Source: Watersipora subatra
Taxonomy: Eukaryota; Bryozoa; Gymnolaemata; Cheilostomatida; Watersiporidae
Direction: 5' to 3'
Length of the DNA: 64,000 nt
Assembly: GCF_963576615.1 (NCBI RefSeq)
Contig: NC_088716.1
Coordinates: forward strand, 5,394,001 to 5,458,000
Shown here: one piece after another, positions 14,746-64,000 of the stretch
Layout: each line of letters begins with the position of its first letter
Numbering within the stretch: the first letter of the stretch is position 1
Program-made: the position numbers and the translations under genes
The notes under the pieces: generated by a model
Told to the model about the DNA's origin: nothing
The model's database searches: none
Seen by the model: only the letters and a program-made list of their open reading frames with translations

Positions 14746-16418
14746 TTTTGGTGAAACATGTTTGTTTATGAATGACAATACACATTTACCTTTGAATGTG
14801 TGACATCATAATCCTTTATTCAGTTTGTCCCTTCTTTATCTTTATTCATGTTGAAATGTCAGTCGTATCTTGTATAAATTACCACCGATGATTTGCTCCA
14901 GGATATTCGATATCGCTAAGTATGCACAAGCTGTCATTGTTTCCTTTCATTGCTTTGTTTTCTTTCACTGCTTGCAGTTCAGTGTTAAGTGGGTGGACGA
15001 GTCTGCACTGCTTTGCTAATCTCGAGCTCTCACTTCCTCCTTAATAGAAATAATTCATTGCAGCAAGCTTTCAATGTTGCTGTGACATTCACTCTGAGCA
15101 AGTGTCCTTTACTAGAAAGTTTCTATGGCTTATACCATTGCTCTACATGCATTGTGTGATTTTCAATACTTAATTTTACTTACTGTAATATTTTCAATAT
15201 ACATCAGTTTTCTGGCCTTTACTGTAGGGCAGTCGTTGAGATGAAAATTGGCTATGTCTTGTCTTACACTTGTATTAACTGATACCAGTAATTTTTGTAT
15301 GTTGAGATATATACATGTAAGTTTAGAATAAAATGTTACAATGGAAGCACATGAGCATTCAATTCTGTTTTCTACAAAATGTTGGTTTGTTTTATTATAT
15401 AATACCAACTAACTTGTGTGTTTCAATAATCTGGGTAGAGTGTTGGTGACGAGGGATTCTTCTTTGTATTGCTACCATCGTTCCATGTTTTGGTAATGTC
15501 TTTGTAAATGTAATCTGCGCTTACAAGTCTCGCATGTGGCCTGGAACAGATCGCTGCTACCAAATATATCACAACCAAGGCTGCACCTTCATGTATCTTG
15601 TCGATGACTCCCAGTTTGCAGTACCCGCTATCCATCAGCATATTTGGTTACTGCTCCTAGCAACAAAAAGCAAAATCTCAGCAAAAGTTGTATCAAAATA
15701 CAATAGTACATTGAGTGACAGCCTAACTAAATGAAGCCTTACCTACTAATCAGGCCTCTGACTAAGGTCACTCAAGTGAACATGAAAGAAAAGGAACATA
15801 AACTGTAAAATATTAAAAAAAATTTACAACATGATAAAATACAATGGCAAATAGTTTGCATATGTTGCTCCTCTCCCCTTCGCTCAAGAAAACTTTAGGT
15901 GCAATAAAGAAAAATATTAAGGGAGAGAGTGCACCTAACACTCAAGATCAAAAGTTTAGCACTAATTATAGGTGTAACATATGCCACGATGCATTTACAG
16001 GAACACAGGAAATGCGTTTTCTCTTCTCCTTTTTTTTTTTTACTCAATTATATGAAACTACTTAACTTTGTGGAAATGAGTGAGTATAGTCTCCAGGCAG
16101 CGGCAGTGAACCGTTGATGGCGTCTCTTAGATGCAGTGGGAAATCCTAGTCGGTGTCAAGGTTGTAGTAGGCTGGCTTCTTTGGTTGATGCAAGGGGAAA
16201 ACGAATTTTGAATGCTAATTCAGCATTCAAGAAGAGTTGCATGCTCGCTAATGCATGCTAATTTTGAGGACCAATTTAGAAAGGGTAAGCCAATTCCTGT
16301 TTAGCCAAATCAAATACTCTATGCAATAACCAGATATTGATAAGAACTCAATATGTTCTAGCAGACTATAGTACAATTTATCAATTTTGTACTCGTGCAT
16401 CCTTACTATTTTCCACTT
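14746..16418. other. Intron stretch without a supported gene
   Basis: Short open frames only. A pyrimidine tract lies at about 16020-16041. I see no second LTR of the retroelement here, although this is where one might be sought. Confidence 0.5.
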
Positions 16419-17201
16419 ATGTTTTGCTTATTAACCACCGTCTGCTTTTGTTCCATCACTTTATTTAAAGTTGATTGTTCCAACCGTAATTTAACCACCA
16501 ATGATTTATCCAAAATTGATTCTCCTGACTTGTACTCTCCTTTCAATTTACTAGACATAACCGAAAATCCAAATTTATTATTTTTAATTGTATCTCATCG
16601 TCTCCAAGTAATTACTGACAATCCGCATCTATTGATCCAGAGAGGTATGTAAACTTATAAACTAAACGAGATTGACATGATTAACATAACTACTATCAAC
16701 TCGTGAACCAATTAAGAAGTTAAGAAGTCACCAATTAAGAAGTTGCTTCACCCTAGCCCAAGTTCATGATTAAGACTGATAACTGCATCACACCTGCGCA
16801 AGAGATATTTCCGTTTCATCACATTGGTTTAACGAAAGTCATCAACTGGCTGAGTTATTTCAGAATTTTAATGACAGGTAAACTACCAATTACTAATCAC
16901 TCTAGTTTTACTTGCAGCTGATTCACCGAGTGATTACTTCCCAACTGATCGAACTGTCATTATTACTAACGTTTCCACTACTGATTATCTCGATTGTAAC
17001 TCTACCAACATCACTTCTATCTACATCCACTCAACTGTTTTTGCAACGAACGGTCTCGACAAACTTTCAACTATTTTATTATCAACGATTCTACCCATCA
17101 GTATTTTATTAATTTTAATTACTATTTTTCTTACTTTACAAATTTATTTACCTACGGCATCGAAGAGACAATCAACTTCCCAGTATTGCCGAACTGATTA
17201 A
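16419..17201 (+). CDS. Candidate spliced single-pass membrane protein, antisense to the retroelement
   Basis: I do not recognise this protein. Exon 1 starts at ATG 16419 and encodes a signal-peptide-like segment (MFCLLTTVCFCSITLF), then a polar domain with an N-glycosylation motif (NLT). It ends at 16644 before GTATGT. Exon 2 starts at 16918 after a TTGCAG acceptor; phase 1 joins phase 1. It adds further NVS, NST and NIT sites, a transmembrane segment near 17070-17150 and a short tail ending at TAA 17199-17201. A second frame, open to TGA 17302-17304, would give a longer acidic tail (RRDNQLPSIAELINLG, DDESEDSLFDAA) that looks more protein-like. A one-base indel near 17120-17155 is therefore likely. 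It could be a nested host gene, or an antisense accessory gene of the adjacent retroelement. Confidence 0.5.
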
Positions 17202-17679
17202 TTTAGGTGAAATGAGCAACTTGGCAACAATTGACGATGAAAGTGAAGATTCTTTGTTTGACGCAGCTTCAATTATTAACCAAACTAATAATTCTCCTGT
17301 TTGATTCTTCTATTACATTTCTTATTACTTACTATTCACTAATTTTTCATCCTGCCAGCCATCATTACAGTCTGCATATCTACTGTTGATTTAATTTCTT
17401 TCACAATCAGATTACGAATTTATTACATACATGTTTTACTCACAGTTACTTAGTGCTGTGTATAACTGGAACTGTCTACTTACTAATATAGTTACGTTAA
17501 AGTTATTACCATCGATATTTAGGAGTTAGCACTATTGAGCAAATGGGTGAACAATAGTGTTCTCTAGTTTCATGCACTTACTAATACAATTTTTTTTTTT
17601 AACGCACAATTTTGAGTACAAGATTGTCTATTCGCAAAACTAACAAGTAAAAGCGTGAAATATTGATGGTACGTAGCAA

Positions 17680-20605
17680 CTAGGCGCGGGGTCGTAGGTT
17701 GTATGTATGACGGGGTTGAGAATTACTCGTGTCTGAATCAGTGTTAGTTTGGGTGTGATCTGGTACATCGCCAGTACTCGTTCTAGAATCAGTAGCACGC
17801 TTTACTGATACGTACTGTGGAGTATCACTACCGGGGAGCAGAGGCTGTTTGCACTTTTTAAGTCGCTGCAGGTGAGTGACGAATTCCACTCCTACTGGCC
17901 TTCCAGCAGCACCCATTGCTCGGATGTATGCATTTAGACCTCGCAGTTTCGTAATCACATAAGGTCCGTAATACTGACTCGTAAACATTTTCACTTGTCC
18001 GGTAGTTACTCGAGGTACCAGGGTATACACGCAATCGTTAACAGCATAGTCATGCCCTTTCACATGCAAGTCATGGTAATACTTGTAACTGGCTTGAGCA
18101 CATTCGATGTTGTCACGGGCTTGAGGCCAAGCAACGGCTAGGGATTCTCTCATGATATCTACACTTGACTTATCCTCGGCATAACTTTTCGGGATAGTTA
18201 TTGGCATACACAAATCAAATGGTATGTCCAACTCTCTGCCATATAACATATAGCTAAGGCTGAACTTGGTCGAATTGTGTACAGTGTTGTTGTATGCGTG
18301 GAGTACATATTTAGTCATCTGGTCCCAATTCGTCTGTGACCTGTTAATTACGGTCGACATCAGATTGCTGAAAGTACTGAAAAATCGTTCAATTCCACCA
18401 TTGGTTGAAGCTTGAAAGCTTGAAATCGTTTTCTTTTCAATATCTAACGTTTTGGCCAAGTCATTCATTAGATCGGATGCAAATTCCAAGCCATTGTCAC
18501 TTAAAAGGACATTCATAACGCCATGTGGTAGGATGACAAACTCAATCAAGTTTTCAGCAATTGTTTGCGTTTTCTTATCAGTAATAGGACGAGCTATCGC
18601 AAATTTTGTGAAACTGCATTGAAAAGCTACAAGGTATTTTGCACCTCGCTCAGTTAAAGGAAGGGGTCCAAGTAGGTCGATGCTCACACGAGAAAATGGT
18701 CGTTCGCATTCGATGGGTTGTAATGGGTATACTGGATTAACGTAACCACGTTTCCTTTGATTGCAGGGCACACAAGCGGATATGAAATCGGCTACACATC
18801 GAGACATACCAAGCCAATGGTACCGCTGAGATAAACGTTTGAAGGTTCTTGATCTGCCTACATGGCAACCAAAGAGAGACGAATGATATGTTGCAAGCAG
18901 GTCAAGCTGCAGCGCTTCAGGTACACATAATAGGGCTCTTACCGAGTCGGATGGGTTGTAATACAACACCTCCTCTTGCAAGAAATAGTTATCCTTCTGG
19001 TTTTCGAAGTGTCTGTGCTGAGTAGGATTACAGTCGGTCGGTTTTTCGCCATGAGTAAGAAAACGTATGATTTTAGATAGGTAGTCGTCCTCTCGCTGAA
19101 ATTTCTTGAATGCCAACAGGTCTTCCTTGGTACATGACAGGTGTGTTATTGTAGAGCCTACTACGCAATTGTCTGAAATAGAAACTCTTGATAGAGCATC
19201 GGGCACAATATTGTATTTACCAGGCTTGTGTACTATCTTTAAGTCGTATTCTTGTAACTTTAGGGCAAATTTTGCTAATCTGGAACACTTGTGTTGACAA
19301 GTCATTAGCCATTTTAGTGGAGAGTGGTCTGTAATAACTGTAGTTTCATGTCCAAGAATAAAATGACGAAAGGTTTTACATGCATCCACAATTGCCAGAG
19401 CTTCACGTTCATAGGTGGAATATCGCTGCTGAGCTGTGTTTAACACCTTACTATGATATGCAATGGGATGGTATCCATCCTCAAACATTTGACAGAGCTG
19501 GGCTCCTAAGGCAAATCCACTGCAGTCAGTATGCAGAAAGAAAGGTCTCGTAAAATCTGGATATCTTAGCACGGGATACTCAGCCAACTTCCTTTTCAGC
19601 AAATTAAATCTTGTCTCACACAATTCAGTCCAAACAAATTTTCGGTCATGTTTCAAAAGTTCTAAAATGGGCTTTATCAAATCGCTGTAATTTGGAATGT
19701 AGGTCCGATAATAATTAACTAGCCCAATAGTCCTACGCAGTGAATTGAGGTCATGAGGCGAAGGAAACCGCAATATTTTGTCCACTAGCTCAAAGGTAGG
19801 TTGACTGCCTTTACTTGTGTACACATGTCCTAGATATTGAACCTTATCTCTGGCAAATGATGATTTCTCTGGATTGACCTTTATACCATGCGCTATAAAA
19901 CGGTCCAACACGACACCTACTTGTTCAATGTGTGTGTCCACGTTATTCTCGCTAAATATTAAAATGTCATCCAAAAAGGAAAGGCAGCTTTTCCAGTTCA
20001 GATTTGCCAAGATGGTGGAAATTGCTCTCTGAAAAACCTGAGGAGAGTTTTTCCAACCAAAAGGAATCACCTTGTACCTAAACACCCCATTATATGTCAC
20101 AAAGGCGCTTCGCTCTCTATCTTCTTCGCTATCTAACCCAATTTGCCAATAGGCTTTCATTAAATCAAGCGTTGTAAAAAGGGAGCTCCCTGTGAGCATC
20201 TCCTTGACACTGTCTTGATGAGGTAATGGGAAAGAAAGAGTATGTGTGCATGCATTTACCCTACGATAGTCATTAACTATGCGCATACTCGTACTATTCT
20301 TCTTCTTCACTAAAATAATTGGTGACGCCCATGCGCTTTGTTGGGCAGGCTCTATTAACCCAGCTTTAAGCATCTTGTCTATTTCCTCATCTAAGGGGGC
20401 TTTGTGCACTACCGGTATTCGATATGGTGCATGCCGGATAGGGGCAGCATCCCTAGTGTCACAGACTCTACCAGACAACCCAGATACTCTGCCTAAGTCA
20501 AAGGAGTGAGTAGCAAAAGCATATCTTTTAGACTCAAGAAATCTTTTAAATCGTTTCTGATCCTGTGTATTCAATACAGATTTTGTCAAGTCAATTTTAC
20601 TTATA
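17680..20605 (-). CDS. pol: Retroelement Pol: RT, RNase H, integrase
   Basis: About 975 open codons without a lesion. In residues counted from the upstream edge of the open frame: RT at about 65-250 with catalytic FLDDIL (about 221-226); RNase H with HTDCSGFALG (about 370), the TYEREALAIV block (about 408) and ITDHSPL (about 436); integrase with an H-H-C-C zinc domain (HSSLFGCH to CVPC, about 585-625) and D-D-E residues in VSIDLLGP, LSDNGLEF and GGIERFF (about 653, 714, 750). The end NLRPRA is common in Ty3/gypsy Pol. There is no natural start codon at the upstream edge, because the frame enters from the protease across the nested insertion site. Confidence 0.93.
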
Positions 20606-20634
20606 CTGCCCTGATCTGACAAAACACAGTAACT
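20602..20634 (+). repeat. Left terminal inverted repeat of the nested DNA transposon
   Basis: Begins TATACTGCCCTGATC; pairs with 23323-23355 with four mismatches in 33 bases. Confidence 0.88.
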
Positions 20635-20962
20635 CAAATTTTAAAATTTTTTACTTTTTTAGTGTTTTACAGACTTTACAACTTGGCGCATAATATCCAC
20701 CAAGCGTTTCACCAAAAGACTTATCTGAACTGCATTTTTGATGCATTTAAACTTTATGAAACACAGTAACTCTGATGAGCTTGCTTTTATGAACTCGCAT
20801 AACACAGCAAGTGCACTTGCATTGTTTTGCCAACAATCATCAGAGCTAGTTGATGGAATTTCAGTAAACTTGCATAACACAGCAACTGCACTTGCTGTGT
20901 TCTGACTGAAATTCAAACTGCTAACAGTTAATCTAGTCATCCTTTGGATAACACAGCAAGTG
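20621..20962. repeat. Subterminal repeat cluster AACACAGCAAGTG
   Basis: The motif AACACAG(C/T)AA(G/C)T occurs near 20623, 20761, 20803, 20882 and 20949 in one orientation, and near 20898 in the other as CTTGCTGTGTT. Some copies carry an extra palindromic GTGCAC or CTGCAC. A further copy is in the right TIR. Such clusters usually are transposase-binding sites; here that is inference. Confidence 0.7.
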
Positions 20963-21037
20963 ATTTTGGTTGGTGGCATTTTATAAAGTTGATTCGTACT
21001 GACATCACTGCTCTAACACAACTGCGTACTTGCTACC

Positions 21038-22938
21038 ATGGATAAACAAGGATCATCAACTGAGAATACAGCATACGGTAAGTAAAATTATTACTTTACT
21101 AGCATTTTACATCATGAAAATCAATTTGTTCACCGTTTCATATCATATACAAAGTCCTAAACACTATTTCATGGATAAAACACACTACACTGTTGTTCAT
21201 GCGCTATTATTGATGGGCTGCAATCCATTGCTACACCCATTAAAATACACAGATCTTGCAGTAATATTACTAAAATCTTTTAATATTTTTAGACATGACA
21301 ATTGATCAAACACCTGTAAAAAGACATCGTACCGATAGTGAAAAAAGAAAACGAAACCTTGAGCTTCATCCATTAAAACCACCATGCAATTGTCGACGTG
21401 AATGCTCTCTCAAAATACATCAGAATCGTCGTATTGAGATATATTTAAACTTTTGGGAGCAAAACTACAACCAACGGAAACAGGTAATACACCAGCTAGT
21501 GCAGACGGTTCCAAAGAAAGTCACACTATCTGCAAACTCTCCTCGTCAGCATACGTTTGTGTATCAAATGGTTAGTGGAGATGGACAACACATACAAGTG
21601 TGCAAGTTGTTTTTCCTGGCAACACTTGGCTTTGGTCCAAATTCTAGCATTGTTGATGAAACCAAGTCAACGTGTGACGACTCATCACCAATCGCTACTA
21701 AAGATCGTAGAGGAAAGCACGCGCCAAAGAACAAACTTTCTCCTCAGGTAATAGCAGACATAGATGCCCACATTGAGTCATATGAGCCTTCAGTCTCACA
21801 TTATCGCCGGGCACATGCACCTCATCGCCGCTATTTGCCAACAAACCTAACGATCAAAAAAATGCACAAAAGTTTTGTTGACGCTCATCCGCCTTTTCAA
21901 ATATCATATACAACATACCGGCGCCAAGTAGAAAGCAAGAACATTTCTTTTGCAAAACTCGGAGAAGAAGAATGTGAGAAGTGCATTGAGTTTGACAAGA
22001 AGCACAGTCATGAAGACATAGATGACACTTGTGATGTTTGCAAAGAAAAAGACTTGCATTTGCAACGTGCAAAAGAGGCACGAGAAGCTTACAAGCAAGA
22101 TGGTTGCAGCTTGAAACCTAATGTTATGGTTAGGAGTGCAGACATGCAAAAGGTGTTGATGTTGCCACGTATTCCTGGTTGTAAAAGTGTATGTTTCACA
22201 CAACGATTAACGACATACCACGAAACATTTGCTCCGGCAGGTGAGTACATGAAAAAGGGTATTGTACCAACTCAAAGTTTTATTTGGCATGAAAGCGAGT
22301 TTGGGCGTAAAGCTCCTGACGTAGCAGCAATTTTTGCTCTGGCCCTGGCTAAGGACCGTGATTATCATGAAATAATTTACTACCTTGATAACTGCTCTGG
22401 ACAAAATAAGAACTGGACATTGTTTACAGCCATTTTAGAGCTTGTTAACTCCGACGTAGTGAAGTCTGACACCATAACCTTGAAGTTCTTTGAGCCTGGA
22501 CATACTTTTATGTCCGCGGATAGCATTCATGCAAAAATAGAAAAGAACATTGGCCATCGAAAGCTTTTTGACTTTGAGGATTTGAAAGCATGCTACCATA
22601 TGCCAAACATTCAAGTAACAGAAGTTAAACATTCTGATGTGAGAATCTTTCAATCCCACCTATCAGCTGCAAAACGTTGGAATGAGGGCACACTTCTTTC
22701 AGAAATAAAAATTGCTCAATTTCGAAGAGGGGAACGGAAATTCTTATATAAAACCTCGTATAAGCAGAACAACTTCAGATCATTCGACTTCTTACCAGCA
22801 AGACACGAACTAATCTTGAGCGATAAGTTTACTGCAGCCGCAAAAGGTTTCAGCAAAACACGCAAGGAAACTCTTATTACCAACTTGGGACCTCTCATGC
22901 CAGCAAATAGACTCCAGTTTTGGAAAAAACCTGGCTGA
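21038..22938 (+). CDS. Transposase-like protein of the nested DNA transposon (561 aa, two exons)
   Basis: Exon 1 runs from ATG 21038 to 21077 before GTAAGT; exon 2 runs 21293-22938 after a TTTTAG acceptor. Phases match, and 40+1646 nt give 561 codons plus stop. The N-terminus has a basic stretch and a Cys cluster (PPCNCRRECS). A second Cys set lies at CEKCIEF and DTCDVC. The C-terminal half has SADMQKVLMLP, IIYYLDNCSGQNKNW and EPGHTFMSADSIHAKIEK, which could supply a DDD/E-like catalytic triad. From memory, these motifs mark a widespread uncharacterised invertebrate family, probably the one Pfam calls DUF7869; I cannot verify the name. TIRs and an insertion site here strongly suggest it is the transposase. 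No lesion, so it may be recently active. Confidence 0.8.
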
Positions 22939-23322
22939 AAGTTAAGAATGCTCAAATTATTCTGAAACAGTACCTATGCATTAAATTTTAGTCGGATTAA
23001 ACATGTTGTAGGTTATACTTAAATTATTGTCACTCATTTCTAATAAATTCTGTTTTGCAAATACAGGTTTGTTAACTCTCCATGCACATTACAGTGTTAT
23101 ACCAGCTCAGGCATGAATGGCATTCATTGTTGAAAGTGCGCGCAGAACTCAGCAACTCAAGGATTAACTAATTAAGAGATTATTACATAATATATTCAAA
23201 TTGTAACTCATCATGTGTGTTTGCTAACTCATCATCTCTATAATCCTATGATTTCAAAATGCCACTGCTACCGTGTAGACAGCAGTAAATAATTCATCAT
23301 TGTGGAAAATACGTAAATTCGA

Positions 23323-23355
23323 ACTTGCTGTGTTTTGTTGGATCAGGGCAGTATA
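23323..23355 (-). repeat. Right terminal inverted repeat of the nested DNA transposon
   Basis: Reverse complement of the left end. It includes GATCAGGGCAGTATA at the outer edge. Confidence 0.88.
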
Positions 23356-24524
23356 GGGTCAGTTGGCTCGGTATTAACATCTTTAAAAACTTCATTAGCA
23401 TTAACCACATCCATGTCGTCTGCAGATAATGAAAAGGCGATTCCAAGCGGAGTTCCTTTAAATACTGTAATGTAGTTTTCAGAAGTATTTACTACACGGC
23501 ACCTCAAATTACTGTCGCTTGGATTGAGTGTCTTTGCAAATAATAAATCTTTGTGTACTATGGTTGGTTCAAAGACCACATGGTCGTTATAATAAGTTCT
23601 GCTTGAGTTGCAAAAGTTATTGTCACTGTACGGTGGAAAAACTAAATCCCTGTCTGCAAACACATTGCAGTACATTCTACTGTCAGCATGTTTAATCATA
23701 GCGCAGTTATTAAACAATTGTTTTCCATGCATCACAGGCTGTATTCTTAGTCTTCCCAAGTGGTAGTCAACACAAAACCTTCCCAGTTGTTTTAGACTGT
23801 CAACTCCTAGTATTAGTGAATATTTGCATGTGTCTATTACTAGAAGAACTGTTTCAATAGGTATATTACCATGGCATCGTATTGGCACAAAAACTTCACC
23901 TAATCCTAACACTACATGTCCACTCATCGCTCTTACAGCTTGAGAAGTTTCTTTTATTTTAGTCTGGATGCCAAGTTTTCTACACAAGTCCATGCTAATT
24001 GTGGATACCTGCGCACCCGTATCTATCAGAGCATCATGTTCTTGACCAAGAATTGTGGTACGTATTAAAGATTCATGAACTAAATTTGACACATTGCACA
24101 CAATATCTGCTAAGGTGGGAGCATGTTGTCGTGTGTATACTCGTCTTGCTTTTGTCCGAGAGGCTATATGCTTAGTAGTCTGTCTAGTAGATCGTCTGTT
24201 TCGTGTTTTGAGTTGGTCAGTTTCCCTAGGTAAATTTCGCTCCGGTGTTTTGTAAGATACTAGCGGAAGGGAAGCTGGCTCTCCTGGAGCCCTAGTGTTT
24301 TCCTCTATGTTAGTCATTTTATCTGATAGTATGTCATTGCTATTCGATGGCAATTCATTGACCTCAATCTCCTCAAGCTCATTTTGCTCTAATGGAATTA
24401 GGATATTCCCAGTAGTTTGGTTCAAAGCAACAGATATTTTGGTAGTTCTATCAGTTTCCTTAGAGCCAAGGAAATATCCACACAATTTTTTCTTAGGATC
24501 TTTTGCAAATGCTTTCAGTCCAGT
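23343..24524 (-). pseudogene. Linker and aspartic protease of the retroelement
   Basis: After the anchor come an acidic, then a strongly basic linker (near 24135-24250, rich in Arg and Lys). A retropepsin follows with catalytic motif DALIDTGAQVS (DTG at about 24015-24023) and the later hydrophobic-G motif LILGVDSLKQLG. About 150 further codons run to the stop at 23343-23345, which lies inside the nested transposon's inverted repeat and is therefore created by the insertion. Confidence 0.82.
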
Positions 24525-26186
24525 GCACATGAGAATGCATCTCCAAACTAAATTTAAGGTTATATATAGACAGCACAAAAATATCCAAAACTGCTTTATG
24601 TCCCATGTACCATAGGTACTCAAGAATGAAAAGGTCCCTTGATTGACTATATTGTTTGCCAGTTTGCCGGATTGCAGTAAAGGGTCACTGTGAAAATTAG
24701 AAGTTACTCCTAAATGCTCCAGAATTTTTGCTTGATGTGAAGAGGAACTAGCCCAGTCATTTAGTGAGAACTTGTCTCTAAATGTATCCCAGTCATATAG
24801 TAATAGTTGATGGATTACCACCTTGTCATGTTCGATGCCAAACGCTGAATAGTCTAGAAATATCAAGTTAAGAGAGTCAGTCTTGGTAATAGGAGTCAAG
24901 TCACCGCTGCTATGATGATAATAGTACAACTTGTTCTGTAGCGAAACAGGAATTTCCTGGTTCATTGCACACTCACCGTAGTCCCTGTCATGAAATACTA
25001 TATTTGTATGAGTGTCGAGCCAAACAGTTTTATTAGCGCTGGCAATATTAATGTTCAAAGGAATCCTGCTAGAGCGCGTTTCCGCAGACATTATAGAGTA
25101 GTTCTCAATTGGTTCGCATGGATAAACAGATAAAAGGTTGTGAGTCAGCATTGCATAAACATAAGTATTATTTAGTAGGTGCCTAGCAGCCAATGTCGGG
25201 CTCCGCTCAAGTGAACTTGTGACCAATTGCACTAGTGCCTGCATGGCATGACAATTATTCAGAAAGAACGCTTTGAACATGTGATTGTAATTTTGGTGGA
25301 TTCATAATTCAAGAGCTTGCAGCTTGGCATTTACTTCGCTATCCGTTACTCGTCCATCAATATCTCGTTTCCCTCGGGTTACATTGTTTACACGGCTGCA
25401 AGCTATGCCTTGGTCAGACAACTCCACATCGCCACCACATTCGCTATCTTGACGCACAATCTGATTTTTAGTGAAACTTAAGGCTAACTCACCACTTTCT
25501 GCCATCCAGAACCAATCTTGGAACTGGCCGTGGAAAGTCTGGTGTGGCAGGTACTTGCACTCCTCCCTCTCGTCTGGTTCCCAGAGAAGAGCAGAGCCAT
25601 CCTTCAGGTTGCAGAAGCCAGCGAGGTAGGTGCAGTGGTCTACCACACCAGCAGGGCTTTCCACATTCTCGGCTTCTCTATGTCGCTTGAATACGCTCGT
25701 CTAATACAAATAAGCATTAAAGACAGTGAGCTCATAATCTGCGCAACATTTAAAACCAGTGTGAAACTCCGGTTCCGCCACATTATCTGTTTGATAGATT
25801 GAACCAGTTTGTACCAGATCACCATGCGGGGAGGTATGCCATTTATAAATTGAATAGCACGTGTCTCGTGAAACAAGTTGGTCAAGGTAGTCGTCTGTCC
25901 TTGTCTGTCCCTCACCAAAAAATCCTGAATGAGTCACAATCCTAGTTTGAATGATTTTGCAATGAAATGCTCCGCTTTTGTATTGGACCAAATTGGGCTT
26001 ATATAAAGTTAATGTCAAATCGTAGGGGTCGTGTGAGGCAGTGGTGTCTGGCAGTATGCAAGGAGGCAATTTCGGTAAATGAAATTTTGCTACAGTATGC
26101 CCAGTCCGGCAAAGCATTGGGGACTGAGCTTGGCACATAGTCAAGAGCGCAAGGAATGTAAACAAGAAACTCATGGCATATGACAT
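24525..26186 (-). pseudogene. Envelope-like glycoprotein region inside the polyprotein
   Basis: A signal-like hydrophobic segment (near 26120-26186, MSFLFTFLALLTMC) opens a Cys-containing ectodomain. An N-V-T sequon lies directly before a furin-type RGKR site (near 25370). Further sequons follow (NNT, NKT), then a transmembrane anchor at about 24525-24590 (FWIFLCCLYITLNLVW) and a Lys-rich cytoplasmic side. Signal, furin site, sequons and C-terminal anchor are what retroviral-type envelopes have; I see these directly, and the fusion role is inference. TAG at 25701 and TGA at 25302 interrupt it in frame. I could not place it in a known fusogen class. Confidence 0.65.
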
Positions 26187-26819
26187 TCCAAGTCCACTAC
26201 CAACATTCCTTCTAGTTACACTAGGCGGTCTAGAAGGGTGATAATTAGCCTTATTATCGCTATTCAATTGCCTCTGCAAACCGCTTGCTCTCACTTCACT
26301 TGCACTACCCTTAAGGTTAGTCATCACCTGCTCAGTTTCAGCTACATCAAGTGAAATCAATTCGTAGCCTTGTTCCCTGCTTACCCATTCACTAGGCACA
26401 GTAGGAACTACCTTAGTCCTACTGCCGACCTTACTTGTCTCAACATTTACCTGCGAAACCTGTGCTACTTCAAAAACAACCGCGGGTACTATTGTGGCTA
26501 CACGGTAAATTATTGGACCCATTACTTTTGCTTTAACTTCTTGTGCAACTGGTGCCTCAACATATTCAAAAGCCATGTTGTCAAAAACCACAGTTGTATT
26601 ATCTCGTGCCTGGTTGAGCGCTACACTAGCTGGCTGTCTCGTAGAATTTGCAAGGAGCACTTCGGCCGAAGCATATGCTGCTCGCGGGGGATTTGTGACA
26701 GATTGCTCAGTAACTGGAGATTTTTGACTCGCTAGCCAATCCTTGAACCATTTCGGCATTTCATTTTGCTGGCTATTTACTCTATGCTGGCCTCTATTGT
26801 TGTTATTGTCAAAGTTTGG
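26187..26819 (-). pseudogene. Spacer between Gag knuckle and envelope-like domain
   Basis: About 210 codons in the same frame, low in Cys and rich in Val, Ala, Thr and Ser. It contains MPKWFKDWLASQ near its start. No known domain is recognised. It links the knuckle to the hydrophobic segment at 26186. Confidence 0.55.
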
Positions 26820-26822
26820 TCA

Positions 26823-27182
26823 GGGTTGTTGGTACAACTGAAACCTACCCTGCCCTGGCCTTGCCTGGCCTTGCTGACCTTCCCTACTACTCACAGCCTT
26901 CTTGTCACAAAATCTAGCTAGATGTTTGTCCGACATACACCAAAAACACTTTCTAACTGTCTTGTCAAATCGTTTGTTTTGAACTGGGTGAGGCCTGCCA
27001 CTCTGGTAATTTGCGGAAACGTCAGAAACATCAGAAACATTTTTATCTGCTAGTAGCGCAGTTTCTACACCAACTGCAGCTCTCAAAATATCTGATAAGT
27101 TTTTGCATGGTGTGCCCATTATTTTGTCTCTAATAGCTGAATGCAAACCCGCTCCGAAGTGAAGCAAAATATAAGGGCTGAC
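26823..27182 (-). pseudogene. gag: Gag C-terminus with CCHC zinc knuckle
   Basis: The frame continues from the capsid (LLHFGAGLHSAIRDKI) to a nucleocapsid-type knuckle CFWCMSDKHLARFC, which fits C-x2-C-x4-H-x4-C. A Gln/Gly-rich tail follows before TGA at 26820-26822. The knuckle would bind the element's RNA during packaging. Confidence 0.82.
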
Positions 27183-27848
27183 TTACCCAGCTTTTCCACT
27201 CGCAACAATTTTTCTGAAGCGTTCATAATACTTGCGCACGCTTTCCGTGCTTCCCTGTCTCACTGCTGAGACTTCCAACGCTACTTGCTCATTGCCTTTG
27301 CATGCATTCAACTTAGTTTTCATGAGCCTTTTTACTTTTTCATAAGTTACTGAACTGCCTTCTGCCCTAACAATTTCCTTTAAATATGCCGCAGCAAGAT
27401 CTTTAAAATATAGCTGTAAAACCAGCACGTAAGAAGACTTGGGCACCTCATTCAATAAACAACACGTTTCAAATTGCGTTGAGAAACTATCAAAATCTTC
27501 TTCACTTTTCCCAGTAAAACCGCCCCAGAACCTCACCCAGTCACTCCTACGAGATTGCCTTACCTCATAGCCATTGCGATCTAATAGGTTGCCACCAAAA
27601 CTTACCTCTGGATCTTCCGCTGGAAGGAAACGGCTCTCTCCCCTCATTGCCGGTCCTCTGTCAGCTATCTCTGACATCCTCTCTGTCAACGTTCGAATCA
27701 TACGCTCAATACTGTCAGTTTTCCTGTCCACAGCGTCTAGTGCATCCTGCTGCCGGTCCACGACATCACCCATTTGCGCAAACCTCTGGTCGACGCTCTC
27801 CATTGGATCTTGAAGACTCACCAATGAGTTTTCCCCACTGTCTCCCAT
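27183..27848 (-). pseudogene. gag: Retroelement Gag, N-terminal and capsid-like part
   Basis: Starts at ATG 27848, just after the primer-binding site. A coiled-coil-like N-terminus (MESVDQRFAQMGDVVDRQQD) precedes a capsid-like region with WVRFWGGFTGKSEEDFDSF and a helical part ending in SVRKYYERFRKIVASGKAG. This pattern is typical of Ty3/gypsy Gag. TAA at 27183-27185 stops it mid-capsid; the same frame continues immediately. The stop lies inside GGGTAAGT, a good splice-donor consensus. Confidence 0.75.
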
Positions 27849-27860
27849 CACACGCAAAAA

Positions 27861-27872
27861 CTTCTGACACCA
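27861..27872 (-). other. Candidate tRNA primer-binding site
   Basis: On the minus strand TGGTGTCAGAAG begins with TGG, the complement of a tRNA CCA end, and sits just downstream of the candidate LTR and 5' of the gag start. The tRNA is not identified. Confidence 0.6.
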
Positions 27873-27873
27873 G

Positions 27874-28547
27874 TGTGATAACCCGTTGCTAATGTCTTTC
27901 TTAGCAATGTTACCCTTAGGGGGCTTCTTCTGTTTAGGCCAATGTTTGTAGAACTGTTTTTCTACCTCAAGATTTAATACTGTGATAACGAGACAGTGTT
28001 GTATTTAAGAACAGTATATTTAACGATCTATATTACGTATTGAGAATGTATCATAGAATATGAGCGTAAGAGTATCAGTATGAATGTTGAACTAAAGACT
28101 TTCCACAAACAAGATAGGGTTCCCTTATATAGGAGAGAATGACTTGCATAAAATATGTGTGGCATGAGTCAAACACAAGATACGAAAAGGTTGCAGAATA
28201 ATATTTACACAATTAATTTTGTTCCAGGCGCACAGACAAAGATAAGCAAGCGGATGCGGACAGATAATTAGCGTAGTTGGAATGTTTATGGAGGATGACA
28301 CGAATGGTGACACAGACAGTCTTGGCAGGAAAAGATGTTGGTCTTGTAGTAATTGTCAGATGTCAAATGATGAACTGTTATAAAAAAATGTTACGTTCGT
28401 ATCTTTTGTGTATACTAAAATAACAACTTAATGTATAAAAGATATGTAGCTCTGACATGAGAGTTGTTCTGACATCGGTATGTAGAAACCGCAGCTAGGC
28501 AGAGGCAAGATAAAACTAGGTCATAGTCAAGATACAGGTATCTTACA
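27874..28547 (-). repeat. Candidate 5' LTR of the retroelement
   Basis: Bounded by TGTGATAACC at 27874 and TCTTACA at 28547, giving TG...CA ends on either strand. It lies one base from the primer-binding site. A TATATA-type promoter motif sits near 28120-28130 in minus orientation (CTCCTATATAAGGG). The outer border is a guess from the TG/CA rule, since no partner LTR was found. Confidence 0.5.
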
Positions 28548-31416: not shown

Positions 31417-34222
31417 CATAGATATAGTAAACCCTAGATATGCGAATAAGCAAAACAAGTGAGGCCTATAATTAGCATGACGCAACGTCATGGTGATGTG
31501 CAAAGCGAATCAGCTGATCTAATAACTCCTATTGACTTAGCACTAAAAACTGCTCAATTTTTCCATAGTTTGTGCATCTGAGACTGCATACTTTATTGAA
31601 AATATGTAAAAATTATATACAGTAATACTTCTACTTACGAGTGCCCTAACATACAAGAAACTTGAGGTATGAGCCAGCTTTTAAGCAAGTTTTAGCACTA
31701 ACATACGAGCCATGTTTGAGATACGAGCACGTGAGTCAGTCGCCAAGTATGTCGGAGGTGTTTTATGAGAACAGCATCACTCTGTATTTTTCATCTGCTC
31801 AGATTATACTTTTGTACCATGTTTTTTGTGCGCGATTTTCAGTGCTGAATTATGTGAATTGAAAGTACCGTGCAAAGACCGAAATTTTGCCAGTAAAAGG
31901 ATAGATAATGCAAAGAAAAAGCGAATAATAACAATTGATATTAAACGGAAAATTATTGAAAAATATGCAAAATATGTATGTGTAATTGAGCTAGCTCAGC
32001 AATATGACAGAAATACATCCACAATTATCAAACACAAGGATTATATTCAACGTATTTAGTTTGCAAAAGGACTAACCATAGTTTCTAAACAATGCAGCGA
32101 TCTTCACGGCCACTGATGGAGAGACTGCTCAGGCTTTAGATAAAAGACAAACAATTGGCCGGTGACTGCGTAACTGGAACGATGCTACGTAAAAAGGCCG
32201 GTGCTATCTATCAAGACTATAAAAAATAGACATTCGGACAAGTTGGCTAGTGGTTGTGCATTAACCCTTGGGGACGACACCTGTGTTCGTTGTGATCGCA
32301 ACATGTTGAAAGGGCGACAAAGGCAAACGTCCTTAGATAGGTTTATCTTAAAACGGCTGGCTGGTCGTGAGAGCAAAACAAAAGAAAAATTAGCTAACCA
32401 GCGAGAAACTTAAAACTATGAACGCCGAAGAGATTTTAATTACGTTAAGTTAAAGATTAAAGTTTGCTTTTAAGTTTGTCTTTTAAGAATTTTTTTAAAA
32501 GTTTTAAAATCCAAATTTTTCAAAGTCAACTGTTGTAATGAAGGATAACTTATCTCTCTTTCTCTAGCAATTGCTAGCGTTAGCTCATATTGTATGTATT
32601 TAACTTTACATTTTAATTAATTACATTTCCTTGCATTAATTTTTATTTGTTGCTTTTTCAAAGAATGTGGTAAGTTAGGACAATAACCAACACGTTCTTT
32701 TTGTTACAATATATTGTTTTGAGTGTTTTATTTGCATTTTTAGAGTATGGAAACCAATCAAAATATACTTAATTGTTCTATATATAAATAAATTTCACCA
32801 ACATGCGAGTAAATTGGCATATGAGCTCAGTCTCTGAACGAATTAAGCTCGCAAGTCGAAGTATGACTGTAATGACTTTGGATGAGAAGGGCAAGAATCT
32901 TACACAGATGGTAATGAATAATACCAATGATTTAGAAGCTTTAATATCATTGATAATACAAAAAGTGACCAAATAGAAAATAAACTAATAACAAACTAAT
33001 GAATCAAATGCGATTTAGAAGCAGTTACCCTGGACCATTGTATTAAACACCCATTAGACATGACTGAAAATAACTAGACGAGATAGTTTTTGTCTTAGGT
33101 TGGTTGAACTAGATTCTTGCTTTGAAGCGGCATAGTTTATTCTGATTTTAATATAGCGATTTACTATAGCTTTGAGGAGACTGTTGGCATGCACTGTGCA
33201 TGTAAAACCTTGATTGAGGTTATGTAATAAGACATATATGTTATTGTCTGTGATGTTACATGTTTAAAAGCTTTCTGTGTGAAACCATAGCTCTCCATGT
33301 GTGAAGGTAGGCACTTTTCTGCAGCAATACATATTCGGCCTATCAATCTGGTCGCCAATCCTCCTTTGTTTTTAACTGAGATTAGGGTTATATCATCACT
33401 ATTTCTACTTCCCACTACTTCTACATCGGTCAAGAACGTGATACACTCATCACATTTGAGTTAGAAAAAATTCCTCATAACCCAACTCCTCATCTTCACC
33501 TTCCTCAGCCTTTGTCTCTTCCTTTTTCTAGTCAGAGAATGTAGCAGGAGTTGGCCAGTTTTTTCAGCTCTGCTCACATCAAGATTAGTACAGTTAGCAT
33601 TGGGACTTGGTGTGATATTTGCTTTTATGAACAGGGTTCGAATTGCAGATCTAAAGCACTGCACATCCGGGTTATGGTTATAGCCACCCTTAGATAGTAT
33701 TGTGGAAAACAGAATCTCAATGTGATCCTGGTTGATCTTAAAGGTTAGGAAGTAGTTGATGTAAGGGTAGTTGCTGAAAAGATATTGAGCAATGCCATGT
33801 ATAGATTCGGCTGCTGACTCAAAACCAATGACGAAATGAGGATGATTTTTCTATTATTTTCCACTAGCAGCTTTCAGCTTGGTGTCTTTAATCGGCATAG
33901 ATAGCTTATGATATTGTTGAGAACTTGTTGTTTTGAGTTGAAGTTCTGTTTTGTTATGGGCATTTCAGGATATACCTGGGGTGTTGTGGTCTCTTCTGAT
34001 GACATTTCACTAAGAATTTAGTCTTATTGTTACGTTTATGGCTTGAAAACTAGCATACCAAGTGTGCTTCCACTGCTAAACTTATTGCTCAATTGAAGGC
34101 TTTGATACTGTGATGCACATCACTATGACGTAACGTCGTGAAAACAACAGCCAATTATAGGCCTTACTTTTGCTCCATTGTAGTGATGGCTATTCGCCAA
34201 TCTAGGGTTTACTATATCTATG
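31417..34222. mobile_element. hAT-type non-autonomous element with 8-bp target duplication
   Basis: CATAGATATAGTAAACCC at 31417 is inverted at the right end (to 34222). The similarity runs inward for over 100 bp with gaps (GGCCTATAATTAGC and ACGT-rich motifs in both). The flanks GGTTGTAT (31409-31416) and GGTTGTAC (34223-34230) match at 7 of 8 bases, the target size of hAT elements. The interior holds a nested Tigger-type element and minus-strand open frames (33164-33433, 33461-33664) without recognised domains. Confidence 0.72.
31620..32869 (+). mobile_element. Tigger/pogo-type element, copy A, nested
   Basis: CAGTAATACTTCTACTTACG at the left pairs with the inverted right end CAGTCATACTTCGACTTGC; both are bordered by TA. 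About 31895-32056 encodes a pipsqueak/CENP-B-type helix-turn-helix (TIDIKRKIIEKYAKYVCVIE and ELAQQYDRNTSTIIKHKD), the DNA-binding part of a pogo transposase. The DDE domain is missing. A related copy lies at 52784-54005 in the opposite orientation. Confidence 0.82.
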
Positions 34223-52767: not shown

Positions 52768-55700
52768 CTGTAATATAAACATACAGTCATACTTCAACTT
52801 ACGAGCGTATGCGTTCCGAGACTAAGCTCGTATGTCAATTTACTCGCATGTTGGGGCATATTATTTATATATAGAACAATTAAATATATATTGATTGGTT
52901 TCCATACTCTAAAAAAAGCAAATAAAACACTCAAAACAAGATATTGTAACAGAAAGAACATGTTGGTTATTAGCCTTACGTACTACATGCTTTCAAAAAG
53001 CAACAAATAAAAAATGCAAAGAAATGTGATTAATTAAAATGTAAAATTAAATACATACAATAGCAGTTAACACTCGCATTTGCCAGATAGGGAGATATAA
53101 GTTATCCTTCGTTACAACATTTGACTTTAATAAATTTGGATTTTATCAAAATGTTAAAAGACAAACTGAGAAGCAAACCTAAAAGCAAACTTTCATTTTC
53201 AACTAAACGTATTTAAAATTTTTTGGGCGTTTATAGTTGGAAGTTTTTCGCTGGTTAGCGAGAAATTTTTCCCTTTTTTTTGCTTTCACGACTAGCCGGC
53301 CGTTTTAAGATAAACCTATCTAAGGACGTTTGCCTTTGTCGCCCTTGCAACATTTTGTGATGAGAACAAACACGGGTGTCGTCACGAATGGTTAATGCAC
53401 GACCACTAGCCAGTTGTCCAAATGTCTATTAAACAGTTTGGATAGATAGCGCCGGCCTTATCACATAACATCGTTTCAGTTACGCTGTCACCGGCCAATT
53501 GTTTGTCCAATGCCATCAGCGGTTGTGAAGATCACTGCACCGTTTAGAAACTATGGTTAGTCCTTTTGCGAACTAAATGCCCTGAATATTATCCTTCGGT
53601 TTGATAATTATGAATGTATTTCTGTCATATTGCCGAGCTAGCTCAATCACGCATACACATTTCGCATATTTTTCCGTTTAATATCAATTGTTATCATTTG
53701 CTTTTTCTTTGTATTATCTTTCATTTTATTGGCAAACTTTTGGTCTACGCACAGTACATTTACTTCACATAATTCTGCACAGAAAACCGTGCACAAAAAA
53801 AAACACGGTACAACAGTATAACCTGAACAGTTGAAAAATACAGAGTAATGCTGTTCTCATAAAACACCTCCGGCATACTTGGCAACTGACTCAAGTGCTC
53901 GTATCTCAAACATGGCTCGTATGTTAGTGCTAAAACTTGCTTGAAAACTTGCTCGTATCTCAAGTTTCTCGTACGTTGGAGTACTCGTAAGTTGAAGTAT
54001 TACTGTACTGAATTGTTACAGTGCTAATAAATAGTGTGGTATTTGAGCTTTAAGCTTGTCTTCTGGTGTGGTATCCAGCCTTGTATTACAGGAATATTAC
54101 AAGATTAAGAAAACAGCTTTTCTCAGTAGATTTTGTCTAAGCGGATTATGAAATAATATCATCTTTTTAGCATCATTCTTACTTTTCTGCAAATTTGGAT
54201 CAACTGTTGACAGACTTTTCCTAATTTATGTTTATGAGAAGTTTCACATAATTTACATGTTTATGGCAAGGTATAACCTCTTCTGGTACCTTATTTATAA
54301 TTTCACGTGAATCTAAAGTTTTAACCCCCAGCTCCAAATACTGTCTCTGCAGAGATTTACCAACCTGGAACTCGGCTGAGATGAGGTCATCATCACTTCC
54401 TGGTTGTTGCAAGTGCTTTGCCATTCTAGATTCTATGTCTGTTGGTTGGCAGTTAAACTTTGCAGTTGATAGTGACTCATAGAGAGCATCATGTAGCAGT
54501 TCATATTGTTCCTGAAGTGTTTAGATATGAATAATGAACGACTGGATCTTTGAAGACAATTAGATAGATAACCAAGACTACATACTTATTCTATCAACTC
54601 AATTCATTGTCAATAATGGAAGCAATAGTCCCATTTTGAATCTTCTGATATGTCATGTAAAACAAACGTAGTTACTAGGACATGTATGTATGTATGTATG
54701 TATGTCGTATGTTGTCTATTTTCATTTTTGTTGTTAAGAAGATTGGTACATACCACAGTTTGTATCATGCAAGGCCTTCTTGTTCTCATTTCACTCACAC
54801 ACTCAAAAGCATCCACAACTCCTTCTGCTGCTGCCTGGTCAAGTAGGTAGTCAAGAGCAACGTAAGTTCCAGTTCTCCCAACACCAGCACTAAAACACAT
54901 GTGGATAGCGGTTTTTCATTGATGCCATATCTTAATCTGCTATGTGGTGGAAAGCATAAACACGGAACTGTGGACTACATCTAATTACCTGTATTGGTTA
55001 GCTTAAAATGATCTGTTAAAACAAAGTCATTTAATTTAACTGTGTTTATGATTGCATTCCAGTTTCGATAAAATACTAAAATTTAGAACAGCATCGTTCA
55101 AGATTACTTCTAATTTTAAGGTAAGATGTTTCATGATGATCAATGAATGCTTTTATTAACTACAAGTGCTCTGAATGAATATGAATGTAGATTATTGAGT
55201 TGCAATTTAAATAGATGACCACATACTTTTAACAGAGTAAACTAATAACTGTTTCCAATAAGAAACATTTTTATTATATTGAAAAACTGTCTTGTTATGG
55301 TAAAATTTAGTCTGCAAGATTAGCAGTAGAGGATTGGTCTAGTTGGTAGCCTTTTGATCTAAATTTCTGAAGCTTATGAGCTCAGAACACTAAAAACCAA
55401 TACTTTATTATCCATTAATTATCGTCCAATTCATGTCTTTTGTTTGATAGTTTTGAACACGATAACAAGATCAGAGATTTAGAGTCCATTAAGTTGTATG
55501 CAGAAACATAATGGTTACTTTATGAAACCACATCATAGTTTACTATAATGCAGTATACTACGACTTACTGAAACATAATACGATTAAAGGCATGACTGCA
55601 TAACTTTGGTGAGTTTATGCAAAGCCAGATAGCTCCTTATACTAAAGAATATGGTCAGCAAAACTGCCCTTCGCTAATATAGACTTCGTTAACCATTAGA

Positions 55701-61220: not shown

Positions 61221-63870
61221 GAACACATATTAAAGCCTTATATAATCCACTATACAACATATTAAAGCCTTACTTACCCCACCATACAACATATTAAAGC
61301 CTTATACGCTCTACTATACAACATGCTAAAGCCCTATATACTCCACTATACAACATATTAAAGTATTATATACCCAACTATACAACATATTAAAGTATTA
61401 TATACCCACTATACAACATATTAAAGCCTTATATACCCCACTATACAACATATTAAAGCCTTATATACCCCACTATACAACATATTAAAGCCTTATATAC
61501 CCCACTATACAACATATTAATGCCTTATATACCCCACTATACGACATATTAAAGCCTTATATAACCCACTATACAACATATTAAAGCCTTATATACCCCA
61601 CTATACAACATATTAAAGCCTTATATACTCACTATACAACATATTATAGCCTTATATAACCACTTTATACAACATATTAAAGCTTTGTATACCCCATTAT
61701 ACAATATATTAAAGCTTTATATACCCCATTATACAACATATTAAAGCCTTATGTACTCTACTATACAACATATTAAAGCCTTATATACTCACTATAGAAC
61801 ATATTAAAGCCTTATATACCCCACTATACAACATATTAAAGCCTTATATACCCCACTATACAACATATTAAAGCCTTATATACTCACTATACAACATATT
61901 ATAGCCTTATATACCCACTATATACAACATATTAAAGCTTTATATACCCCATTATACAACATATTAAAGCCTTATATACCCCACTATACAACATATTAAA
62001 GCCTTATGTACTCTACTATACAACATATTAAAGCCTTATATACTCACTATAGAACATATTAAAGCCTTATATACCCACTATAAAATATATTAAAGCCTTA
62101 TGTACTCTACTATACAACATATGAAAGCCTTATATACTCACTATAGAACATATTAAAACCTTATATACCCATCTATACAACATATTAAAGGCTTATATAC
62201 CCACTATGCAACATAATAAAGCCATATATACCCCACTATACAACATATTAAAGCCATATATACCCCACTATACAACATATTAAAGCCATATATACCCCAC
62301 TATACAACATATTAAAGCCTTATGTACTCTACTATACAACATGTTAAAGCCTTATATACTCACTATAGAACATAATAAAGCCTTATATACCCATCTATAC
62401 AACATATTAAAGGCTTATATACCCACTATGCAACATAATAAAGCCATATATACCCCACTATACAACATATTAAAGCCATATATACCCCACTATACAACAT
62501 ATTAAAGCCTTATGTACTCTACTATACAACATGTTAAAGCCTTATATACTCACTATAGAACATAATAAAGCCTTATATACCCATCTATACAACATATTAA
62601 AGGCTTATATACCCACTATGCAACATAATAAAGCCATATATACCGCACTATACAACATATTAAAGCCATATATACCCCACTATACAACATATTAAAGCCA
62701 TATACACCCCATTATACAACATATTAAAGCCTTATATACCCTACTATACAACATATTAAAGCCTTATGTACTCTACTATAAAACCTATTAATGCCTTATA
62801 TACTCACTATAGAACATATTAAAGCCTTATATACCCCTCTATACAACATATTAAAGCCATATATACCCCACTAAACAACATATTAAAGCCTTATATACCC
62901 CACTATACAACATATTTAAGCCTTATGTACTCTACTATAAAACATATTAATGCCTTATATACTCACTATAGAACATATTAAAGCCTTATATACCCCTCTA
63001 TACAACATATTAAAGCCTTATATACCCCACTATACAACATACTAAAGCATTATGTACTCTACTATACAACATATTAAAGCTTTATATACCCCACAATACA
63101 ACATATTAAAGCCTTATATGCCCACTATAGAACATATTAAAGGCTTATATACCCCTCTATACAACATATTAAAGCATTATATACCCCACTATACAACATA
63201 TTAAAGCATTATATACTTTACTATACAACATATTAAAGCCTTATATACCCCACTATACAACATATTAAAGCCTTATATACCCCACTATACAACATATTAA
63301 TGCCTTATATACCCCATAATACAACATATTAAACCCTTATATACCCCACTATACAACATATTAAAACCTTATATACCCCTCTATACAACATATTAAAGCA
63401 TTATATACCCCACTATACAACATATTATAGCCTTATATACTCTACTATGCAACATATTAAAGCCTTATTTACTCACTATACAACATATTAAAGCTTTATA
63501 TACCCACTATAGAACATAATAAAGCCTTATAGACCTCACTATAGAACATATTAAAGCCTTATATACTCACTATACAACATATTAAAGCCTTATATACCCC
63601 TCTATACAACATATTAAAGGTTTATATACCCACTATGCAACATAATAAAGCCATATATATCCCACTATACAACATATTAAAGCCTTATATAACCCACTAT
63701 ACAACATATTAAAGCCTTAGATACCCCACTATACAACATACTAAAGCCTTATGTACTCTACTATACAACATATTAAAGCTTTATATACCCCACAATACAA
63801 CATATTAAAGCCTTATATACCCCACTATACAACATATTAATGCCTTATATACCGACTATACAACATATCC
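61221..63870. repeat. 32-bp satellite array, about 80 copies, with 190-bp higher-order units
   Basis: Unit ATTAAAGCCTTATATACCCC followed by ACTATACAACAT, 32 bp in total, repeated for 2.65 kb with variants such as ACTCACTATAGAACAT and GCCATATATACC. In part of the array the variants recur in blocks: the GTACTCT variant is at 62102, 62324 and 62514, the last two 190 bp apart with nearly identical content between them. That is higher-order repetition of six monomers. Confidence 0.95.
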
Positions 63871-64000
63871 AATATATAATGCCAATCCTAAAATGGAGTA
63901 AAATCAAATGTCGAGGATCTTATTTTCTTTCATTCATTAAGTTAAGTGAAGTTAAGTGCATGTCTACTGAGTTGAAAATATACTGATAACACTACCTTAG

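Follow-up and report, generated by a model that had tools for sequence, protein, structure and literature searches.

The bryozoan Watersipora subatra carries a lineage of long terminal repeat (LTR) retroelements in which the gene for an envelope-like glycoprotein (Env) lies between Gag and protease. The gene order Gag-Env-Pro-Pol is established in this genome: it recurs in one common frame over many subfamilies, and a related layout is present in a second reverse transcriptase (RT) clade. The copy at the centre of the analysis lies on the minus strand of a 64,000-nucleotide stretch (NC_088716.1, positions 5,394,001 to 5,458,000; hereafter the window) and is a decayed member of its lineage. This lineage is probably a Ty3/Gypsy-type (Metaviridae-like) one, with a class III-like Env made as part of a Gag-Env-Pro-Pol polyprotein.

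An earlier note on the window had described Gag, a CCHC knuckle, Env, protease, RT, RNase H and integrase at 17680..27848, in a single frame if a nested transposon is set aside. Order and frame stand, but in the window copy the frame is interrupted by four stops, TAA at 27185 and TGA at 26822 in Gag and TAG at 25703 and TGA at 25304 in Env; the interval holds the core genes, but the element is larger, running from 28547 down to about 15433. The 5′ LTR (27874..28547) aligns over 675 columns, at 94.5% identity, with that of copy a, one of the open-frame copies treated below, and the primer-binding site TGGTGTCAGAAG (27861..27872), directly inside it, occurs at the matching place in copies a-c, e, f and h-j. 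Gag (26820..27848) starts with the ATG at 27848, matches PF03732 (2.5e-5) and has one CCHC knuckle (26948-26907). A variable linker (26187..26819; 53-283 residues among the copies measured) leads to an internal signal-peptide-like segment (26127..26186), placed by subfamily alignment and hydropathy and bearing A/G at its likely cut site. The Env ectodomain and membrane anchor follow (24543..26126; RGKR at 25376-25365, anchor at about 24590-24543), then a linker from the anchor to the protease (24063..24542), the aspartic protease (23787..24062; PF13975, 7.6e-10; DTG at 24023-24015) and the open reading frame (ORF) for RT, RNase H and integrase (17680..20640; GPY at 17967-17959). In this last ORF, RT matches PF00078 (3.2e-29), RNase H PF17917 (1.3e-33) and PF17919, and the integrase zinc domain PF17921 (2.4e-16), while the integrase core PF00665 (rve) scores 29.5 bits, under its cut-off of 32.6. 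The 3′ region (15433..17679) is 96.7% identical to that of copy a; a second LTR of the window copy was not found within the window.

Gag, Env and protease share one frame (codon starts equal 2 mod 3 from 28004 to 23346), and RT has a different frame number because a DNA transposon with terminal inverted repeats (TIRs) is inserted between it and the protease. This plus-strand transposon (20606..23351, 2746 bp; TIR CTGCCCTGATC; TATA on both sides, read by eye) contains a DUF7869 ORF (21277-22938) and is foreign to the retroelement. Together with one TATA, the length of the insert equals 2 mod 3, exactly the RT frame offset, and in copies lacking the transposon Env and RT share one frame. The stops of the window copy are of all three kinds (TAA, TGA, TAG), and other copies are open without recoding. 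Up to the protease, 18 pieces picked for their open frame, near-copies included, have no stop in frame against 44-83 and 66-117 in the other two frames, an openness beyond chance expectation.

Recurrence was measured across the genome assembly (783.7 Mb, 239 contigs). The N-terminal Env piece gave 123 matches (110 of 468 candidates scored) and the RT piece 91 (the best 91 of 8158 candidates scored), so that the Env and RT counts are a sample of the top candidates. The earlier note had reasoned that the arrangement would be accidental if other copies lacked the glycoprotein at this place; the arrangement withstands this check, since upstream of 48 of 52 same-lineage RT rows (at least 56% identity), within 7 kb and in the same orientation, there is an Env-like match. 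The four without it (C8:33184107, C2:61083632, C8:49429452 and C3:60382383) all have internal stops; C8:49429452 was flagged for a downstream Env, which is probably that of the next RT row, C8:49440886. None of the 39 distant RT rows (35-39% identity) has an upstream Env; eight of them lie in open frames of 1609 codons, 815-1000 shorter than the Env-bearing frames, and the longest frame among the 39 is 1960 codons. At 15 places Env and RT rows are correctly spaced and lie in one shared stop-free frame of 2424 to 2609 codons.

Gene order was mapped on 3.4-5-kb pieces around Env rather than on whole elements. Most open-frame pieces run from CCHC through the signal-like segment, RxKR/RxRR and anchor to D(T/S)G. 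The exceptions are L013 and L016, fully open with no CCHC in the piece; L019 and L023, with a shorter open stretch and no CCHC; and L025, which has the CCHC while cleavage site and protease are absent from its open stretch. The pieces of L003-L008 stop short of the protease, L004 and L007 among them having short open stretches. In the copies mapped Env lies between CCHC and protease, and a layout with env after pol was not encountered; between the pol stop and the 3′ LTR, 13 copies contain no sense ORF longer than 112 codons. As a separate observation, six places (C10:8145907, C2:53085934, C71:375828, C187:274070, C2:37181079 and C4:43060181) have open frames of 708-737 codons in which the Env match ends early in the ectodomain; these, L083 among the pieces, are perhaps a propagated truncated form.

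The full-length copies that the earlier note called for, with the same order, an intact frame, LTR pairs and target duplications, exist. The ends of the 15 open-frame copies were fetched separately for LTR comparison: 14 of the 15 have an LTR pair, 99.2-100% identical (copy g over 413 bp only), and 13 of the 15 have a 4-bp target duplication, 12 located by script and that of copy l (CATG) by eye, as the script had misplaced its ends. No target duplication was seen for copy g, and the sequence fetched for copy d contains no 3′ LTR. The LTR pair with TG..CA ends, the primer site and a target duplication within the 4-6 bp expected of Metaviridae are thus present in the lineage, while the window copy lacks its 3′ LTR. 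The near-identity of the LTR pairs, together with the target duplications, implies that the lineage moved recently. Primer sites vary by subfamily, with TGGTCCCGCGAAG and TGGTGCCGAAACC besides that of the window copy.

Env is under purifying selection. At low synonymous divergence (dS) the ratio of nonsynonymous to synonymous divergence (dN/dS) is 0.14 (L020/L021), 0.13 (L021/L022) and 0.14 (L017/L018), and 0.27 for L009/L010, with few changes; it is 0.05 for L013/L014 (dS 2.4) and 0.07 for L011/L024 (dS 1.9), values that are rough at such dS. Env is identical in the pair L027/L028, and dS is saturated in four distant pairs. Among the subfamilies of the window lineage (group I), Env identity is 40-77% (95% in one near pair); a second alignment gives 43-80% relative to its first row.

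The kind of glycoprotein is suggested by profile and predicted structure. Of 12 Env rows, 11 match PF24664 (Monjiviricetes glycoproteins) with E values of up to 0.1, and the first row scores 38.2 bits against a cut-off of 27; the stop-free Env piece of the window scores 20.5 bits, under the cut-off, and the same place 29.8 bits, above it, in the genome search. The structure prediction against known fusogens that the earlier note had proposed, made on a relative, gives a gB-like architecture with a long central helix, the mark of class III. Env thus appears to resemble class III (herpesvirus gB-like) fusogens as found in nyami-, chu- and related negative-strand RNA viruses. Comparison of the Env piece with phage records, and of the piece and the Env alignment with IMG/VR viral contigs, returned nothing useful; sequence searches of PDB gave no match in one case and three chance-level rows in another.

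A related Env occupies the same position in a second RT clade (group II). The genome profile search with PF24664 (65 matches; 68 of 72 candidates scored) adds open frames, six of them of 1479-2277 codons: L077-L082, at C6:14996900, C4:49944900, C8:52275800, C3:57852100, C2:38391400 and C5:44798200. All six pieces have CCHC, RxKR/RxRR and anchor in one frame, and three of the six a signal-like segment over the hydropathy threshold. The protease-like motif after Env is DSGA in L079 and L080 and DSGS in L077, while L081 has DSRS, perhaps a damaged form; in L078 and L082 a pattern scan, the sole check made there, found none. Group II Env is 23-29% identical to group I Env in the three rows compared, and RT at four group II places is 34-36% identical to that of the window. 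Conserved cysteines, cleavage site and anchor are found in the Env of both clades. An unrooted tree of 18 RT pieces, all from this genome, yields three groups: group I with support of 100/100, group II with 100/99, and the RTs that lack Env with 93/96. The program warns of long branches. Since the tree gives three groups and no root, one gain of Env with a loss and two gains fit it equally. For group II, partial LTR stretches of 180 and 229 bp were recovered, at 100% identity, their outer ends lying outside the sequence fetched.

Protein database searches returned nine proteins in all. P0007 aligns over its full 818 residues with L079 at 66%, and its single ORF contains CCHC, segment and RxKR; in P0004, Env and protease are joined. 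The family assignment rests on the Pol order protease-RT-RNase H-integrase with a Gypsy-type Gag (PF03732, then PF13975, PF00078, PF17917/PF17919 and PF17921), families typical of Gypsy elements. No family known as BEL-type appeared in the profile search of the window.

How such an element might be expressed can be proposed from the sequence. The unspliced genomic RNA would be translated into one polyprotein. Gag would remain cytosolic, the internal hydrophobic segment would open the translocon, and Env would be threaded into the lumen of the endoplasmic reticulum (ER). Signal peptidase would cut behind the segment and a furin-type protease at RxKR/RxRR; the second hydrophobic segment would stop transfer, leaving Pro-Pol cytosolic again, and the element's own protease would release Gag and Pol. 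Open copies read without a stop from Gag into Env and from Env into the protease; therefore, barring splicing or internal starts, Pol is reached only via Env. In the aligned rows, read by eye, A/G closes the segment ahead of Env where signal peptidase would probably cut, the net charge is positive before the segment and after the anchor in all 18 rows (near-copies included), and the spacing of the segment to RxKR and to the anchor is conserved. Charge and spacing fit a polyprotein whose Gag and Pol lie inside and whose Env lies outside, and signal-peptide cleavage of a polyprotein, the route that the earlier note had offered as an example, is consistent with these topology signals.

Several observations weigh against this reading. 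A 1:1 ratio of Gag, Env and Pol would be unusual for a virion. In L020-L022 a further hydrophobic segment precedes the signal-like one, which makes their topology less clear (their charge counts were measured from this extra segment, picked by script), and L077-L079 have no signal-like segment over the threshold, although L079 does with a shorter window. The linkers evolve fast (dN/dS 0.08-0.54, and 0.90 in one small pair) and may be mere spacers. Confidence in the Env model is middling (pLDDT 67.5, pTM 0.38), and TM-scores are about 0.2-0.4, with a large root-mean-square deviation. Finally, because P0003 is 98.5% identical to a copy in this genome, some of the database proteins may come from this species or a near one.

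The most serious rival accepts the same element and supposes that Env is translated on its own, from an RNA that is spliced or internally initiated, while a minority of products run on through the continuous frame to Pol. Retroviral Env does come from spliced RNA, as stated for Rous sarcoma virus and murine leukaemia virus (PMC10309623), and P0001, P0002 and P0004 start at a linker start codon upstream of the segment, although these may be mechanical predictions on short contigs. Yet the open copies examined have no stop between Env and protease, so that a spliced Env would keep Pro-Pol unless a second intron removed it, and the linkers hold frame across subfamilies despite large changes in length. 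We regard separate expression as unlikely, though as an alternative to be taken seriously.

That Env might be a captured passenger, in frame and without function, is very improbable: the window copy and many others are broken, as such a reading would have it, but Env dN/dS of 0.05-0.27 and the conservation of cysteines, cleavage site and anchor in two RT clades largely refute it. A one-off insertion or an assembly error placing an Env-like gene in frame has nothing in its favour beyond the single window copy, and the 48 of 52 sampled RT rows, the 15 open copies, the second RT clade and the separate database records leave it next to no probability. Chance, artefact and one-off insertion are ruled out by open-frame copies with their own LTRs and target duplications. 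Beyond the polyprotein reading preferred above, a broader proposal seems to us only somewhat better than evenly balanced: an infectious lineage, of at least two RT clades in one genome, would make capsid, class III fusogen and enzymes as a single polyprotein alternating between the sides of the ER membrane, Env perhaps tethering Gag and Pol to the membrane and bringing them to where budding occurs, with a spliced antisense membrane protein in some subfamilies.

Among known systems, alphaviruses and flaviviruses have an internal signal sequence in a polyprotein that comprises both capsid and glycoprotein, and the layout here is nearer to theirs than to that of any retrovirus; they are, however, RNA viruses without Gag, RT or integrase, and have class II fusogens. 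Errantiviruses (gypsy, ZAM) and other env-bearing Metaviridae are alike in their Ty3/Gypsy-type Gag and Pol, LTRs and captured env, but errantivirus env stands after pol and is made from spliced RNA, whereas here Env stands between Gag and protease. The usual place of env is ORF3 downstream of pol (PMC5408684), and errantivirus Env is thought to be baculovirus-derived (PMC12440569), not class III; Troyka elements encode no envelope (PMC12440569). Anakin, a group of mosquito Pao elements, is likewise an LTR element with a captured chuvirus-type glycoprotein, but belongs to BEL/Pao, and the passages cited neither mention a single-frame Gag-Env-Pro-Pol for it nor give the place of its glycoprotein (PMC7642597). 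The BEL elements Cer-7 and Tas have captured herpesvirus- or phlebovirus-derived fusogens (reportedly herpesvirus-derived in Cer-7), but their env lies downstream of the polyprotein (PMC7642597). MDG1-group sORF2 elements are Gypsy-type with a membrane protein that is usually not after pol, but these FAST-like proteins are 63-107 residues long and are encoded by a separate ORF upstream of gag; sORF2 is downstream of pol in 7/22 lepidopteran consensus sequences (PMC11952523). The bdelloid rotifer elements TelKA, Juno and Vesta are Gypsy-type with captured extra genes, some of them env, but env is ORF3 downstream of pol, and between protease and RT lies a dUTPase, not Env (PMC5408684). The earlier note knew of no described lineage with the present order, and in agreement with it searches of open-access papers, Repbase and subscription journals being outside their scope, brought to light no element described with Env between Gag and protease.

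Where the passages cited here state a position, env of retroviruses and retroelements comes after pol, or gag is preceded by a small membrane protein. The present lineage, young and multi-copy, has its fusogen within Gag-Pol and shows that another gene order is workable; how a retroelement can make a surface protein without splicing becomes a testable question. If the broader proposal above is true, it offers a means of expressing a retroviral envelope without a splicing event of its own. The lineage is also a further case in which Gypsy-type elements captured a fusogen, here RNA-virus-like and apparently class III, and both RT clades have it at the same site; this bears on the origins of retroviruses.

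The 3′ region of the window copy contains a putative antisense gene of two plus-strand exons, with borders placed by eye: exon 1 (16419..16644) is signal-like and LRRNT-like, and exon 2 (16918..17198) combines sequons with a hydrophobic anchor. The window copy and copies a, c, e, f and h each have two antisense open stretches whose GT..AG borders, read by eye, agree in place and phase. The LRRNT match of exon 1 is weak (0.002 in the window, below the cut-off; 0.023 in copy c; none in copy e), and for exon 2 no notable Pfam match was obtained. In copy a the second exon is frameshifted, and copy b lacks the first motif; copies i to l have no antisense ORF of at least 75 codons, and m to o have other ORFs without the motif. 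One idea is that the gene would be a host-derived decoy. Elsewhere in the window, a tandem satellite array at 61225-63868 has a strong strand asymmetry (GC skew -0.62 over 62001-64000), and an inverted pair of about 1.25 kb, 84% identical, lies at 31605-32871 and 52782-54020.

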